A stretch of 64,000 nucleotides of DNA from Nitrospirota bacterium (GTDB lineage Bacteria > Nitrospirota > Nitrospiria > Nitrospirales > Nitrospiraceae), in assembly GCA_030682135.1 (NCBI GenBank), contig JAUXQT010000003.1, forward strand, positions 1 to 64,000, written 5' to 3'. The notes under the pieces are model-generated. The model did not search any database. It saw only the letters and a program-made list of their open reading frames with translations, and was not told the origin of the DNA. Each line of letters starts with the position of its first letter. Within the stretch, counting starts at the first letter, position 1. The position numbers and the translations under genes are program-made. Shown here one piece after another: positions 11,095 to 62,959 of this stretch.

Positions 11095-11214
11095 AACTCG
11101 TGAAGCGTATCTCGTGAAGCGTGAAACGGAAAAGGCATTCACTTCCTCTCTATTTATTTCTCGCGAGATACAAGATACGCTTCACGAACGACGTTCTTTT
11201 ACGCAAGAGGTCAC

Positions 11215-16681: not shown

Positions 16682-16751
16682 CAGAATGCAGAGGGAACTA
16701 GACAACATCACTCGATGGTCTGCACGTCTTGAACAATATGAATACCGTTTG

Positions 16752-16876
16752 CAGGAGGCTCAAAAAGTTCGTCCAGCAAGGCCGCAGGCGAGTCGAAACC
16801 GGAGGCGTACCCTCAGGGGCACGTTGAGGATTTCGATGAGCCGAGAACGAAGCTGGCGGACGTTTTCAGCCTCCTG
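16752..16876 (+). repeat. family-1 element, copy 2
   Basis: CAGGAGGCTCAAAAAGTTCGTCCAGC...GCTGGCGGACGTTTTCAGCCTCCTG. Confidence 0.9.
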
Positions 16877-16889
16877 TTAGGAGGACTCC

Positions 16890-18206: not shown

Positions 18207-18986
18207 ATGGAAGAAGCCATAACTTTTCACGATCGCAATGGCCATAACGTGGCGGCAATCCTCAGCACGCCCGATAAGCCAACGGCAGGTGTCGCCGTAC
18301 TGTGCCACGGGTTTCTTTCCGGCAAGAACAGCACAACCAACAACACCTTGACCCGCCTCCTCAATGAGCAGGGCCTGGCGACCTTTCGATTCGACTTTTT
18401 CGGCCAAGGAGAGAGCGACGGACCGTTCGAAGCGATCACCACCACGCTGGCGATCGCACAAACTGAAGCCGCCCTGGATCTGGTGACCGCCAAGGGATAC
18501 AACCGAATCGGGCTCGTCGGCTCAAGCTTCGGAGGGCTCGTGGCCATTCTGACGACAGCCAGACGTCAGGACATCACCTGCTTAGCCCTGAAATGTCCAG
18601 TGGTGGATTTTGCGGAAGAGCTGCGCGTAACATTCGGACCTGAAGAATTGGCTCGATGGCAAGCCACGGACACGATTCCGAACATCATGGGCGGGCCAGA
18701 CCGGGTTCGTTTGCGGTATGGCTTTTACGAAGACTGCCTCAGACAGATTGCTTATGGGCCAGCTGAACGAATTACGGCACCGACGCTGATTGTACAGGGC
18801 GACCATGATGAATGTGTCCCCCTCCATCAAAGCCAACGATTGCACGAGGTGCTGGGAGGTCCGAAGCGGCTGGATCTCCTGCCAGGCGCCGATCACCGGT
18901 TCACGCGAGGGGAAGACTTTCTCCAGATGACCACCTCGATCAGCGAGTGGCTCGTCAGGCATCTCCTCGTGAAACGTGAAGCGTGA
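18207..18986 (+). CDS. alpha/beta hydrolase (serine aminopeptidase-like)
   Basis: VLCHGFLSGKNS, GLVGSSFGGLVA, VQGDHDECVPLHQS. Confidence 0.88.
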   Translation: MEEAITFHDRNGHNVAAILSTPDKPTAGVAVLCHGFLSGKNSTTNNTLTRLLNEQGLATFRFDFFGQGESDGPFEAITTTLAIAQTEAALDLVTAKGYNRIGLVGSSFGGLVAILTTARRQDITCLALKCPVVDFAEELRVTFGPEELARWQATDTIPNIMGGPDRVRLRYGFYEDCLRQIAYGPAERITAPTLIVQGDHDECVPLHQSQRLHEVLGGPKRLDLLPGADHRFTRGEDFLQMTTSISEWLVRHLLVKREA

Positions 18987-19019
18987 AGCGTATCTCGCAA
19001 GAATTCCGAATCCGGGTCT

Positions 19020-19527: not shown

Positions 19528-19669
19528 AGGCCGGTCACAGCCCTCACAACATTTAGACTTCCAACGCTGCGCCCTTTCTTGCCGTCTCTAGCAGGCGGCG
19601 AAAAAACTCGGTGTATGAGAAAGAGCATAGCCAACATGCTCCGAATTGCACCGTGGCTGGAACAACCAC

Positions 19670-19792
19670 AGGATGCTCAAAAAGGCCGTCCAGCAAGGCC
19701 GCAGGCGAGTCGAAACCGGAAGCGTACCCTTCGGGGTACGTTGAGGATTTCGATGAACCGAGAACGAAGCTGGCGGACTTTTTCAGCATCCT
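19670..19792 (+). repeat. family-1 element, copy 3
   Basis: AGGATGCTCAAAAAGGCCGTCCAGC...GCTGGCGGACTTTTTCAGCATCCT. Confidence 0.92.
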
Positions 19793-19918
19793 GCTAGGAA
19801 ATTTCTTCCGGCCTTTCCCTCTTCTCTCTACAGCCATACTGGTACACCGCCATCGCAAACTGACAATTTCCTCGCCAATCGAACGATTTTCACGAAAAAT
19901 GCAGATGTACTCCCCTGC

Positions 19919-20947
19919 ATGAACAGGGCATGCGCTTTGCGTAGCTATCACCATCTGTTCCAACACCGTTTTGATTGTTTGACTGCAAGGGAAGGTACCG
20001 TGACCCCGGTCCTCACATCGTACCCCATCAAATATATCTTCCTCACCCTCACCCTGTTCGCAGGCTTCACCGCCTCGACGGTCATCGCTGCTGAACATGG
20101 CAGGGAAGGCCCTCATAGCCTGATTCATCGGCCACAGGCAGAACGCCCTGCTCCGTCCGCGCCAATCCAAGGGACCGGGGTCAGACCTCTCAACGGTCAA
20201 CCGCCTCGCCTCGCACCGCAAACCGAACTGCCAAAAACCTCAGCACCGCCAACAAGCGCGCCAGTGAAACATCATCGAAAACTCGCCACGCGCCCAACCA
20301 ATGTATCGGCCGCTCTTGCAGCCCGGGAAACATCGATCGCCGCAGCAGGGCAAGTGACGCGGACGACAGCCGATTCCAGCAAGGCGACTGCGCCTCCGGC
20401 AACGGCGCCAGGATCACAATCGACAGCAAGCCTCTTCGCAGGAGCCACCTCGACTGCTGCCGCGACGGCAACCCCAAGATCTCTCACACCATCTCCCTTA
20501 GCCAACATGGCAGCAACCAGCCCTGTAGCCTCGACTGGAAGCGGTTCCGCTCCTTCACCCGGTGGTTCGAGATCGGCAGTGAACCTGCTCAGGACCTCCG
20601 CAATTGCGAGTCTGCTCCAAGCCCCCACGCCAGTGGTCATCGCACCTCCGTCATCCCCGCCCCCTTCGACACCTCCATCGACACCTCCTCCCGGCCCATC
20701 GACTGGAAGCGTCACACTCTCATGGGCGGCAAATGGGGAACCAGACCTGGCAGGCTATAAAATCTACGTCGGCACGGCGTCCGGCCGGTACGATTTCTCT
20801 GGATCGCCTTTCATGACTGGACTCGTCACGAGCTATAGGGTCTCCAATCTTCCTGTCCCACTAACCTACTTCTTCGCCTTATCCGCCTACGACAATGCCG
20901 GGAACGAGAGTTCACTCTCGGCGGAAATCAGCAACAGCCTCTACTGA
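19919..20947 (+). CDS. Ala/Pro/Thr-rich secreted protein with C-terminal fibronectin type III-like domain
   Basis: SVTLSWAANGEPDLAGYKIYVGTASGRY...YFFALSAYDNAGNES; start uncertain (GTG near 20000 possible). Confidence 0.75.
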   Translation: MNRACALRSYHHLFQHRFDCLTAREGTVTPVLTSYPIKYIFLTLTLFAGFTASTVIAAEHGREGPHSLIHRPQAERPAPSAPIQGTGVRPLNGQPPRLAPQTELPKTSAPPTSAPVKHHRKLATRPTNVSAALAARETSIAAAGQVTRTTADSSKATAPPATAPGSQSTASLFAGATSTAAATATPRSLTPSPLANMAATSPVASTGSGSAPSPGGSRSAVNLLRTSAIASLLQAPTPVVIAPPSSPPPSTPPSTPPPGPSTGSVTLSWAANGEPDLAGYKIYVGTASGRYDFSGSPFMTGLVTSYRVSNLPVPLTYFFALSAYDNAGNESSLSAEISNSLY

Positions 20948-20948
20948 C

Positions 20949-21070
20949 GGCTGCTGAAAACGGTCCCCGGCTTCGTTCTCACCTCGCCAACATCCTCAAC
21001 GTAGCCGAGAGGCTACGCCTCCGGTGTTGCCATCGGCTGCGGCCTTGCCGGATGACCGCTTTGAGCAGCC
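20949..21070 (-). repeat. family-1 element, copy 4
   Basis: Reverse complement GGCTGCTCAAAGCGGTCATCCGGC...GTAGCCTCTCGGCTAC...GCCGGGGACCGTTTTCAGCAGCC. Confidence 0.85.
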
Positions 21071-21107
21071 TATCCTTGCTGGAGATCAGAAGAAGGTGCT
21101 CTCGTAC

Positions 21108-21258
21108 GGGATGCTCAAACAGACGAGTCCACTAGGCCGCAGGGAGTCCGGCGACTGAGGCGTACGTTTCTCTCCCGCCCACCCCGAGCTGCCGAAACCG
21201 CTCTTTCACCCGAGGTACGTCGCAAGGAGACGGACGACTGAGAACGACATGGAAAACA
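21108..21258 (+). repeat. degenerate family-1 element, copy 5
   Basis: GGGATGCTCAAACAGACGAGTCCACTAGGCCGCAGGGAG...GAGGCGTACG; right half poorly preserved. Confidence 0.5.
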
Positions 21259-21302
21259 TTTTGAGCGCTGCCTCGGATGTGAATTGCAGGCAGGGACTAG
21301 AT

Positions 21303-21425
21303 AGGATGCTCAAAGCGGTCATCCAACGAGGCCGCAGGGGAGAAATAACCGGAGGCGTACCCTCAGGGGTACGTTGAGGATTATTTCGATCCGAGAACGA
21401 AGTTGGGGATCGCTTTCAGCATCCT
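21303..21425 (+). repeat. family-1 element, copy 6
   Basis: AGGATGCTCAAAGCGGTCATCCAAC...GAAATAACCGGAGGCGTACCCTCAGGGGTACGTTGAGGATTATTTC...GTTGGGGATCGCTTTCAGCATCCT. Confidence 0.92.
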
Positions 21426-22224
21426 ATCGCGATTGGGCGCAGCGGAAGCCCGTGTAACTATTGCGGGTCTCAGGCGGAAGCTTGAAACGTCCATAGGTGA
21501 GAAGATATTTCGGCGCGTCTGACCAGGATCCGCCGCGGAGTACTTTAAATTGACCTGACTCAGGTCCTTGCGGATTGTGTTCCGGCGAGTTCTCGTAGTA
21601 GTTCACTCCGTACCAATCCTCTACCCATTCCCCGACGTTCCCGGCCAATTGGTAGAGCCCATAGGGACTCTTGCCCTGCTCATAGGATTGCACGGGCATC
21701 AAAACCTGGCTATAGCTGAACCGCGCACCCAATGCGTAATTCGCCAGTTCCTTATTCGGAACCTGATTGCCCCAGGGATACAATCGTCCATCCGTTCCTC
21801 TGGCCGACTTTTCCCATTCCGCTTCGGTCGGAAGCCGCTTCCTCTTCCACCGGCAATAGGCATCCGCATCGGACCAGTCCACGCCGATCACCGGCCGATC
21901 GCCATGCTGCGACAGCTCGACCATATTCCATTGCCACGGTGCAGGTCGATTCGTCTCAGCGAGAAACACGGCATACTGCGCCGTTGTCACTTCGTAAACG
22001 TCGATGAAGAACCTGGATAACACAACGTGATGCTTGGGACGTTCATCTTCAAGCGCCTGCATCCCGTCGACACCCATCGTAAACGGCCCTTCGGGAACCT
22101 CGACCATCGGAGTTTCAACAGGGGGCTGCAGCTCCAGGGCCTTCGATCTTCTCAGGCGATCAAGTTGAGCCTCGCTGAAAGACACGGTAATGGCCAAGAA
22201 TAGAAGAATGCTCAAAAAGGCCAT
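21424..22224 (-). CDS. formylglycine-generating enzyme (SUMF1)-family secreted protein
   Basis: VPEGPFTMGVDGMQALEDERPKHHV, LPTEAEWEKSARGTDGRLYPWGN, GGSWSD, YTGFRC; start set at MAFLSILLFLAITVSFSEA signal peptide rather than the upstream repeat-encoded ATG at 22314. Confidence 0.85.
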   Translation of the reverse strand: MAFLSILLFLAITVSFSEAQLDRLRRSKALELQPPVETPMVEVPEGPFTMGVDGMQALEDERPKHHVVLSRFFIDVYEVTTAQYAVFLAETNRPAPWQWNMVELSQHGDRPVIGVDWSDADAYCRWKRKRLPTEAEWEKSARGTDGRLYPWGNQVPNKELANYALGARFSYSQVLMPVQSYEQGKSPYGLYQLAGNVGEWVEDWYGVNYYENSPEHNPQGPESGQFKVLRGGSWSDAPKYLLTYGRFKLPPETRNSYTGFRCAQSR

Positions 22225-22327
22225 CCAACGCGGCCGCAGGCGAGAGAAAACCGGAGGCGTACCCTTAGGGGTACGTTGAGGATTTTGTCGAGCCGAGAAC
22301 AAAGTTGGTGGCATTTTTCAGCATTCT
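22205..22327 (+). repeat. family-1 element, copy 7
   Basis: AGAATGCTCAAAAAGGCCATCCAAC...GTTGGTGGCATTTTTCAGCATTCT. Confidence 0.92.
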
Positions 22328-22329
22328 TC

Positions 22330-22992
22330 TCAATGGATGATCCCGCCGACGACCCAATGCCGATCATCCGGCACATCGATGATCAACCGCGTCAAATTCA
22401 TTTGCGCCAATTGTGCGCTGATTTCATCTTCGGTGAACGCCGCTAGTAACGAGTTGTAGAAATCTCTCCTAAGAATGTCCGGAGCCCCTGAGGCATACCG
22501 GTCGACGATCGCCTGCGCCTCTTCCGGCGATTCCGGCCGCAAGAGGTCCATCACGAGCACAGGCGAACCAGGCTTCACCGCCACACGTAATTTGTGCCAG
22601 AACTGCAGCGGGTTCGGCACGTGATGTAACAGGCTATTAGACATGGCGGCATCGGCCATATTGGCCCCGGCAAGGTCCTGAAAGCGCTCACAGCGAAAGG
22701 TGATACGATCGGACAGCCCCGCTTGCCGCACCCTGTCCTCGGCCAACCGGATCATCGGAGAAGAGGCGTCGATCGCAGTAATCCGACAGCCTGGCACCGC
22801 GCAAGCCAAACGAATGGGAATATCGCCAGGGCCACAACCCAGGTCGAGCACATGGCCCTCGGAGAATTCCGGAAAGTATTCACGAAATAGATCGACGAAG
22901 CCCTGGTTCTCCTGCGAGAAGTCCGCCGCCGCATAGGCCTGGACCTGCGCATCGTCCTCCATCAATTCAGGTTCGAGCACGCGCAGCATCAT
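22330..22992 (-). CDS. SAM-dependent class I methyltransferase
   Basis: VLDLGCGPGDIPIRLA, ITAIDASSPMIRLAEDR. Confidence 0.88.
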   Translation of the reverse strand: MMLRVLEPELMEDDAQVQAYAAADFSQENQGFVDLFREYFPEFSEGHVLDLGCGPGDIPIRLACAVPGCRITAIDASSPMIRLAEDRVRQAGLSDRITFRCERFQDLAGANMADAAMSNSLLHHVPNPLQFWHKLRVAVKPGSPVLVMDLLRPESPEEAQAIVDRYASGAPDILRRDFYNSLLAAFTEDEISAQLAQMNLTRLIIDVPDDRHWVVGGIIH

Positions 22993-29883: not shown

Positions 29884-30879
29884 ATGACCATGCCACCTGC
29901 CACAAAATCGCTGATCGATTGCCATGTGCATCTGGCTGCGCTGCCGGATGGCGACAACGGCTGTTTCATCTCGCCGAAGATGTTGAAGAGTCCGCTGTTC
30001 CGGTTTTTATTCTGGAAACACGGGCTTTCTGTCGATCGCCCTCGCGAAGCCAATCAGAAATATCTCGACGACCTCCTGATCGAGCTCCGCGCCTCCCGCC
30101 ATGTGCAGAAAGCCGTACTCCTCGGCATGGACGGCGTCTATGATCACAACGGACAGCTCAACCGAGAACACACGGACTTTCTCATCAGCAACGACTATGT
30201 GCTGAAGACGGCGCAGGCCCACCCGCATGAATTACTGGCCGGCGTGTCGATCAATCCTCAGCGGCGCGATGCCATCGACGAAGTCCATCGTTGCGCGGAT
30301 GCCGGTGCGGTCCTGGTAAAAGTGCTGCCGAACGCGAAACAATTCGACCCGGCCAATCCGAAGTACAAACCCTTCTACCGGGCATTGGCCGAACGGAATT
30401 TGCCATTCCTCAGTCACGTCGGCTACGAATTCAGCTTGATCGGCAAGGATCAATCGGTCGGCGACCCGGAGAGGCTTCGGGTACCGCTCGACGAAGGCGC
30501 CACCGTCATCGCCGCCCATGCCTGCAGCTACGGCCTGATCCTCTATGAAAAGTTTCTGCCCACGCTGCGGGACCTTGTGCAGCGCTACCCGAACTTCTAT
30601 TCGGACATCTCAGCCCTTACATTACCCAATCGGTTCCGGATGCTCCTGCATCTTCGCCAGTATCCCGAGGTGCATGAGCGCCTGCTCTTCGGCACCGACT
30701 ATCCCCTCTCCGTGTTCCACGTCGCAGCCTGGGGCCGCGTCGCCTTCGGGACGCTGCGCAAGATGATGAAAACCAAAAACCGCTTCGACCGCCAAGTCGA
30801 GGTCTGCAATGGGCTGAAGCTGGGCTTCCGCTCGCTCGGAGACCTGCTCCCCCACACAGCGGCGAAAACGACCAGCTAG
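29884..30879 (+). CDS. amidohydrolase family metal-dependent hydrolase
   Basis: DCHVHLAALPDG, FLSHVGYEFS, LLFGTDYPLSVFH. Confidence 0.88.
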   Translation: MTMPPATKSLIDCHVHLAALPDGDNGCFISPKMLKSPLFRFLFWKHGLSVDRPREANQKYLDDLLIELRASRHVQKAVLLGMDGVYDHNGQLNREHTDFLISNDYVLKTAQAHPHELLAGVSINPQRRDAIDEVHRCADAGAVLVKVLPNAKQFDPANPKYKPFYRALAERNLPFLSHVGYEFSLIGKDQSVGDPERLRVPLDEGATVIAAHACSYGLILYEKFLPTLRDLVQRYPNFYSDISALTLPNRFRMLLHLRQYPEVHERLLFGTDYPLSVFHVAAWGRVAFGTLRKMMKTKNRFDRQVEVCNGLKLGFRSLGDLLPHTAAKTTS

Positions 30880-31003
30880 CAGGCTGTTGATAAAGGCCGC
30901 CAGCGGCGTTCTCACGGCGCGCAGAGGTTCAACGTACTGCCGAGAGTACGCTTCGCCTCTCCGCTTGCTGCGGCCTTGCGGGACGGCCTTTCTGAACAGC
31001 CTG
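30880..31003 (-). repeat. family-1 element, copy 8
   Basis: Reverse complement AGGCTGTTCAGAAAGGCCGTCCCGC...GTACTCTCGGCAGTAC...GCTGGCGGCCTTTATCAACAGCCT, directly after the amidohydrolase stop. Confidence 0.88.
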
Positions 31004-31090
31004 CGACGACTTCTGACAGCAACTGCAACTGTTCTGGCATGCGAATTTCTGTAGTGGCTTGGTAGTTTGTCAACAACCTGCTAGAGCGAC

Positions 31091-61550: not shown

Positions 61551-61612
61551 CAGGCTGTTCTCAGACAGCGAGTCCAACACCCGTGAAGCGTATCTCGTGA
61601 AGCGTCGTTCGT

Positions 61613-62959
61613 TCAGGATTCAGACGCTTCACGTTTCACGAACGACGAGAGTCCCTTTTTTAGCAGCTTGCAGGCTAGCGCACGTTCGTCCGCCTCCGTT
61701 GTAATCGTCCCATCGATGCGCGCATCTAATAATTTCCCCAAGATCGTCCCGTACTGCGGTCCTGGCTGCAGCCCCATGGACTGAAGATCTCGTCCCATGA
61801 GTGCCGTTTTGATCGTTCGATTCTTCATATAGGCCACAAGTTGTCTCTTCAGGCGGCTCAATATCGCCGCTTGCTGTAGACGCATCTGCTTTGCCAGAAC
61901 CAGGACGAGCGTCTCATCAGGAAGATCGACCAAGAGGCGATAGACCTGCGACGGGTGTACAACTCTCTCATCGGCCAGTCTCTTCAGAACACGATCGGCC
62001 AACGGTCCACCGGCACGCACCTTCCTGGCCTGTTCCCGTGACAACGCGAGCCGCCTGATCATCGCCGCCACCACAGCCTGGCTCGACTCGCTCGAGAGAG
62101 CCATGAAATAGACGATCGGCTTGTCGATCTCACGATCCGGGAATCGACCTGTCCACCAGACAAGCGCCTTGGGAAGGGTCGTCACCACTCGCTTCACGTT
62201 CGTCGTGTAGCTCAAACGGCGATGAAGAAACCGGAGCAGCGTCAACTGCGACAACCGCGCCATCACTCGCACCGGATCGCGCTCGCCGAGCAGCAACAGA
62301 ATTTCGTTCTGCAATCGAGGACCGGAGAGTTGCTGGATCAGATTCGTAGAGGCCGCCTGCGCAAGCAAGCGACTCGTATTCCGCTCAAGGCGGAACTTGA
62401 GCCGTTGTTCGAACCGGATCGCTCTGAAGATGCGAGTGGGATCGTCCTGAAAGCTGCCTGCGTGCAGCACGCGGATCGTACGCGCACGAAGGTCGCGCTG
62501 CCCTCCATAGGCATCGAGCAGCCGTCCGAACTGTCCAGGATTCAGCTGCAGCGCGATGGCATTGATAGTGAAATCACGCCGGTAGAGATCCTCTTCGATC
62601 GACGCAGGCTGAACCGTCGGCAGAATACCTGGCAAGGCGTAGGACTCTCGCCTGGTCGTCGCGATATCCATCTTGAGCCCGTCAGGAAATACTAACCTCG
62701 CCGTTGCAAACCGTTCGAATACCGCAAGCCCGGCGCGATAGCGGTCGGCAACCAGTCGAGCGAAGGCAACACCGTCTCCCTCCACCGTCAGATCGAGATC
62801 CAGGGTCACATGCCCCAGCAGCAAATCCCGAACCACGCCGCCCACGAGATACAGGGACGCACCCCGTTCATCCGCGAGAGCTCCAAGCTCACGAAGAAGA
62901 GAGTGACGCTCTTGAGGGAGGCGATTCAATAGATTGCGACTAGTCATCCGACCCTTCAT
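61613..62959 (-). CDS. CCA tRNA nucleotidyltransferase / poly(A) polymerase-family protein
   Basis: LYLVGGVVRDLLLGHVTLDLDLTVEGDG, RRDFTINAIALQL, LDAYGGQRDLRARTIRVLHAGSFQDDPTRIFRAIRFEQRL. Confidence 0.92.
   Translation of the reverse strand: MKGRMTSRNLLNRLPQERHSLLRELGALADERGASLYLVGGVVRDLLLGHVTLDLDLTVEGDGVAFARLVADRYRAGLAVFERFATARLVFPDGLKMDIATTRRESYALPGILPTVQPASIEEDLYRRDFTINAIALQLNPGQFGRLLDAYGGQRDLRARTIRVLHAGSFQDDPTRIFRAIRFEQRLKFRLERNTSRLLAQAASTNLIQQLSGPRLQNEILLLLGERDPVRVMARLSQLTLLRFLHRRLSYTTNVKRVVTTLPKALVWWTGRFPDREIDKPIVYFMALSSESSQAVVAAMIRRLALSREQARKVRAGGPLADRVLKRLADERVVHPSQVYRLLVDLPDETLVLVLAKQMRLQQAAILSRLKRQLVAYMKNRTIKTALMGRDLQSMGLQPGPQYGTILGKLLDARIDGTITTEADERALACKLLKKGLSSFVKREASES

Follow-up and report, generated by a model that had tools for sequence, protein, structure and literature searches.

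Predicted repeat-derived signal peptides, in-frame MITEs and MITEs at the 3´ ends of genes are already known, and the Nitrospira repeat family described here adds a variant. Specifically, the enterobacterial repeat unit RU-2 contributes to the predicted signal peptide of Yersinia YPO1552 (PMC2759123), and Rickettsia palindromic elements are ~150-bp palindromic repeats that become in-frame coding sequence (PMC10969869). QMITE2 of Coxiella burnetii is a MITE found mainly 3´ of genes, where it sometimes provides C-terminal codons or the stop; it has 7- to 11-nucleotide direct repeats of variable sequence, and no effect on the 5´ ends of genes of known function was noted (PMC5896051).

Whereas YPO1552 is one gene in one species, the Nitrospira case involves two element subfamilies at one locus in 18 species, with the start codon lying inside the element arm and with leaders that are mosaic between species. 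The Rickettsia elements are internal insertions in many genes, whereas the Nitrospira element appears to replace the N terminus of a single gene and most of its copies merely adjoin stop codons. QMITE2 is alike in its position on the 3´ side of genes and unlike in its direct repeats. ERIC/RU-1 is a 127-bp palindrome, which we compare with the Nitrospira repeat by size and palindromy as given in the literature. With IS5-family MITEs the repeat shares a YTAR target, about 4 bp of CTAG on both sides, and ends of the form CAGG[CA]TG[CT]TGAAAAA, as at the IS5-family transposase genes of related genomes; it differs in that nearly its whole ~125 bp forms one hairpin, in having a tailed form of ~205-209 bp, and in the lack of a matching full IS in the draft genome. 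Compared across many species, the locus shows a mobile repeat that probably gives a conserved gene its start codon and part of its export signal; the earlier cases that we found are single-species predictions.

The window, the whole 64,000-nucleotide stretch analyzed here, comes from a draft genome of 113 contigs (G000) that falls in a gyrB tree inside one genus with G001-G031. A scan of named genomes with its SUMF1-like gene returned Nitrospira MAGs as the nearest named relatives and otherwise only distant homologues. The relevant features are as follows.

22330-22992, minus strand: class I SAM methyltransferase gene, upstream of SUMF1 (PF13649 and others).
22205-22329, minus strand: copy 7, an IS5-type MITE-like palindrome with the stop of the methyltransferase gene on one side and the signal peptide of SUMF1 on the other, forming one long hairpin.
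22222-22224, minus strand: likely SUMF1 start codon ATG within the 3´ arm of copy 7, chosen by NTG frequency in orthologues.
22168-22224, minus strand: predicted signal peptide MAFLSILLFLAITVSFSEA, with codons 1-7 from the repeat arm and the remainder outside the repeat; its n-region has no basic residue.
21424-22224, minus strand: SUMF1-like (FGE-sulfatase domain) gene, 266 amino acids from the repeat ATG, product predicted to be exported; PF03781, 192 bits.
21424-21426, minus strand: SUMF1 stop codon TAG, with one base in common with copy 6.
21304-21424, minus strand: copy 6, of the same element family as copy 7; its first base is part of the SUMF1 stop, and its far end has CTAG beside it at 21297-21300.
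20949-21071, plus strand: a further repeat copy, opposite in orientation to copy 6 and directly after the stop of an fn3-like gene (19919-20947); inverted repeat I2/I15.

These coordinates bear out the first-pass annotation of this DNA, which had placed the SUMF1 gene between two family copies, its TAG at the end of copy 6, and its start and first signal-peptide codons inside copy 7. Both copies belong to the direct-repeat family D1 (131 nt) and are 76-77% identical to the reference copy. At the SUMF1 end the minus strand reads TCG CGA TAG GATGCTGAAAGCG, such that base 21424 is both the last of the stop and the first G of copy 6. The first seven codons from the repeat ATG, MAFLSIL, are one arm of copy 7, the arm away from the methyltransferase gene, where the ATG at plus-strand positions 22224-22222 lies in GGATGGCCTTTTTGAGCATTCTTC. 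The other end of copy 7, which that annotation had passed over, adjoins the methyltransferase TGA (plus-strand 22330-22332) at a distance of 0 nt. Upstream of the ATG the reading frame stays open through the repeat, yielding a 296-amino-acid ORF that begins MPPTLF. The element family overlaps both start and stop codons, and automated calls of gene ends in Nitrospira are therefore likely to err there.

The product matches PF03781 at 192.3 bits, above the curated cut-off of 23.3. In FGE, an active-site cysteine pair precedes the GFRC motif. This pair is absent from the SUMF1-like protein, where the region reads GGSWSDAPKYLLTYGRFKLPPETRNSYTGFRC. Orthologues are present in 30 of 30 clade genomes examined, and the methyltransferase-SUMF1 synteny is kept at 27 of the 28 orthologous loci whose upstream sequence was long enough for comparison.

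Stretches fetched from G000, rather than the whole genome, form the basis of the repeat census and hold at least 80 distinct full copies. The element is a ~125-bp imperfect palindrome with the consensus AGGATGCTCAAAAAGGCCGTCC...GGACTTTTTCAGCATCCTGCTA. The fold of the SUMF1 leader copy has a z-score of -5.9 as RNA, a value reached by 0 of 200 shuffles, and of -4.8 as DNA. Across species, the arms of this leader pair at about 16.5-17 of 20 positions, compared with 14.6 for arms matched to partners from other species, and a G.G mismatch in them is nearly invariant (23 of 24). This arm pairing and the long hairpin provide the terminal inverted repeats typical of an IS5-family MITE. No Rfam family corresponds to the repeat, and a literature search that reached few subscription papers found no published description of it. 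A long form of ~205-209 bp occurs at 19588-19800 and 30876-31084, with an extra tail past the palindrome, YTAR at both ends, and many copies in relatives. Short repeats of another kind, the GTGAAGCGT type, recur in the window at 11096-11122, 18965-19005 and 61579-61619.

Comparison of SUMF1 orthologues from 30 genomes reveals that 18 (17 of the 25 within the genus) have their likely start inside an arm of this kind of element, drawn from one of two subfamilies. The ten class A loci read RPRW[MVLI]AFLSILL, and eight class B loci, which carry the second subfamily, read RPCWM[TI]VLTILL or close variants. Orthologues that start outside the repeat do not have this N terminus, whereas the first-pass annotation had named a common N terminus in repeat-free orthologues as a refutation of its reading: in the eight class C loci a different signal peptide (MRFSLGFFSLIPLL..) follows at some distance from the element, and the four outgroup loci begin with MNARRDVLVV.. 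or MNRPRRCFFG... Two outgroups have no element between the methyltransferase and SUMF1 genes, which in G035 meet as TAG-ATG.

At the start position, 16 of 18 class A and B loci have ATG, GTG or TTG, whereas only 8 of 79 other G000 copies do (Fisher p ~1e-10, uncorrected for relatedness) and ACG dominates among the latter (49 of 79). The exceptions are ATA in one class A orthologue and TCG in one class B orthologue. Distances from the element end to a conserved Gln codon are 27, 33, 36, 39 or 42 nucleotides, all multiples of three. Because of this start-codon enrichment and these in-frame distances to the mature part, the repeat arm is very probably translated as the SUMF1 N terminus, and the earlier suggestion that the repeat was co-opted as a translation start gains support. 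Read from the repeat ATG, class A and B signal peptides have a hydrophobic core (9-mer Kyte-Doolittle 2.6-3.5), and an Ala at -1 is present in every class. There is no K or R among the first eight residues in any class A or B species, and thus no basic n-region, whereas class C and outgroup proteins have one or two.

Of the at least 80 G000 copies, only copy 7 has an ATG in this arm that opens a long ORF, and no other gene convincingly started by the arm was found among 80 G000 copies or 12 pattern matches in G011. The ATG sits in the stem; no Shine-Dalgarno-like sequence was found before it, and copy 7 holds no sigma-70-like promoter above chance. Coupling through a ribosome on the methyltransferase stop was set aside: folding under this constraint clearly opened the start region in few species, and inconsistently. 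As a separate observation, class C loci (L020, L021, L026-L028, L031, L032, L034) share a conserved TATGCT box a few bases 5´ of the SUMF1 ATG, which suggests a leaderless transcript.

We consider it probable, from comparative sequence evidence, that an IS5-type MITE supplied the SUMF1 start and the beginning of its signal peptide. Non-autonomous IS5-family copies (MITEs) would insert at YTAR, typically CTAG, and, given that YTAR includes TAA or TAG, would settle directly after stop codons and leave the gene undamaged. Almost throughout the genus, one such copy lies behind the methyltransferase stop and before SUMF1. Its far arm would then, in many lineages, have been joined in frame, by deletion or fusion, to the SUMF1 signal-peptide region, replacing the native leader and signal-peptide start. 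Translation would begin at an ATG (rarely GTG or TTG) in the arm, which codes for M-[AT]-[FV]-L-[ST]-I-L as a new hydrophobic start of the signal peptide. The protein would be secreted, with expression perhaps depending on read-through from the methyltransferase gene, and the leader made of repeat plus signal peptide would later have been exchanged between species.

Because the signal peptides of classes A and B lack a basic residue when started at this ATG, and because the frame is open upstream with the arginines of RLRPRW, initiation at a more upstream position of the repeat must be taken seriously as a rival, albeit one that we regard as unlikely. Translation would then begin at the ATG of KMPPTLF, the TTG of ..PTLF.. 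or the CTG of CTGCGGCC; the start would still be repeat-derived, and the repeat would encode an arginine-containing n-region (..RLRPRW) plus part of the hydrophobic core. Indeed, the frame is open through the element at 18 of 18 class A and B loci, as against 25 of 79 other copies, RLRPRW or LRPCW would furnish the missing basic n-region, and the orthologue with ATA would be rescued. Openness, however, is a property of the subfamily, since copies of the same subfamily 3´ of SUMF1 in G026 and G012 are also open, and LRP.W is ordinary repeat sequence. Moreover, the frame differs between class B groups (SINPQDGENS.. and MVKTIPSFVLG..), with indels, and the upstream ATGs are not common to orthologues. 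The upstream extension is rejected as conserved coding sequence because its frame and sequence differ between subfamilies. The first-pass annotation had called the extension probably spurious; the lack of conservation makes that judgment reasonable, whereas the want of a basic residue in the ATG-started signal peptide keeps the extension from being dismissed entirely.

In 35 of 80 copies, an incoming open frame of 100 codons or more has its stop within a few bases of one end; for the other end this holds in 2 of 80, and displaced control positions give 0-8. Copy boundaries read YTAR-CAGGATGCTGAAAA, equally with or without a frame ending there. The target consensus of the IS5 family is YTAR. 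Two empty sites match this behavior: the window insert at 19588-19800 lies between CTAG and CTAG where four relatives read GTCTCTAGGAAG with CTAG once, and the insert at 16689-16889 lies between CTAG and TTAG where close relatives read CCTAGGAG. Both loci therefore display the YTAR target duplication of an IS5-family MITE. Copies would land directly behind stops because YTAR contains TAA or TAG, which is a simple, testable reason why small palindromes are so often found there.

Target choice thus explains stop adjacency, and selection for position need not be invoked. The opposite explanation, that the repeats are selected transcription terminators or mRNA-stabilizing structures placed behind stops for their function, would account for strong hairpins immediately after stops, for the 35:2 orientation bias, and for paired arm changes around an invariant G.G mismatch. 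We judge it rather improbable, given that YTAR is equally present at copies without an adjoining ORF stop, that the element end has no U-tract, and that element subfamilies would also produce paired arm changes. The orientation bias could nevertheless reflect selection alongside target choice. The earlier proposal that copy 6 was co-opted as a terminal boundary finds no support as a special adaptation, because YTAR insertion puts copies after stops genome-wide. An element or its remnant begins at, or 0-2 nt from, the SUMF1 stop in nearly all orthologues, and YTAR flanks are decayed at both SUMF1-end copies.

It is also very unlikely that translation starts past the repeat and yields a protein that has lost its export, with a fortuitously open frame over the arm. 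Such a start, which the first-pass annotation had named as refuting its reading, would fit the weak n-region and the missing Shine-Dalgarno-like sequence, but in-frame lengths are conserved over five length variants, both subfamilies retain the hydrophobic core and -1 Ala, and non-fusion orthologues retain signal peptides. In G000 the interval from the repeat to the mature part offers no good start codon; the next in-frame TTG leaves only LAITVSFSEAQ and no signal peptide.

The probable link between the repeat and IS5-family elements comes from related genomes. IS5-family transposase genes occur there (NF033581, 236 and 267 bits, cut-off 140), and their boundaries in G008 and G014 read YTAR-CAGGCTG[TC][TG]GAAAAA. 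One G008 gene is flanked by CTAG-CAGGCTGCGGAAAAAC...GTTTTTCCGCAGCCTG-TTAG and a second by CAGGCTGTTGAAAAACG...CCTTTTTCAACAACCTG-CTAG, where the left end is the contig end. About 13-15 of 16 end positions are alike between the repeat and these elements. In G000, a draft of 113 contigs, no full-length IS whose ends match was seen. From the shared ends and targets, the repeats are best read as IS5-type MITEs that were presumably moved by such a transposase. Three loci in these two relatives (L214, L216, L228) carry IS5-family elements with CTAG-type flanks and repeat-like ends, and are a likely source of the repeat family. IS1182 was rejected as the partner IS, with NF033551 below its cut-off and NF033581 (IS5) above. 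Spread as REP/REPIN elements by a RAYT (Y1) transposase is most improbable: the repeats are palindromic and abundant, with a TAG-like tag conserved at one end, and Y1 genes occur in several relatives, but Y1_Tnp (PF01797) has no match in G000 or in several element-bearing relatives, only 5 of 17 Y1 loci have a copy nearby, relatives show no consistent neighborhood, and the empty sites, which point to CTAG at either side in the manner of a DDE element, and the matching IS5-family ends favor the IS5-type origin.

On trees of SUMF1, the methyltransferase and gyrB, the N-terminal class has to change 10-13 times, and for each class several of these changes are forced by starred branches. Leaders are mosaic: G000 and G017 are 93% identical in mature coding sequence and 74% in the leader, whereas G000 and G027 are 88% identical in the leader and 79% in coding sequence. 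Because the signal-peptide portion beyond the repeat also follows class, the most economical interpretation is that species have exchanged leaders, the alternative being repeated independent fusion. More tentatively, and with a probability that we hold to be low, stop-anchored hairpin MITEs might act as exchangeable 5´ modules, such that species trade repeat-encoded starts and signal peptides at a single locus, via recombination or element-for-element replacement, repeatedly changing the start and export of one exported protein across the genus.

IS1272, from a related DDE transposase group, undergoes stem-loop-replacing transposition, in which target hairpins are replaced by its own ends (PMC5678879). 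By analogy, a similar replacement of hairpins could explain why one and the same stop carries differing subfamilies from species to species, and we offer it as a lead; unlike IS1272 replacement, the two Nitrospira empty sites show ordinary CTAG insertion. At three loci 3´ of SUMF1 (L013, L024, L032), differing element subfamilies, sometimes in reversed orientation, occupy the same post-stop position across species. Finally, at 20949-21424 in the window, the fn3-like and SUMF1 genes converge, and the two oppositely oriented copies that follow them make up a 77-bp inverted pair enclosing ~320 bp.
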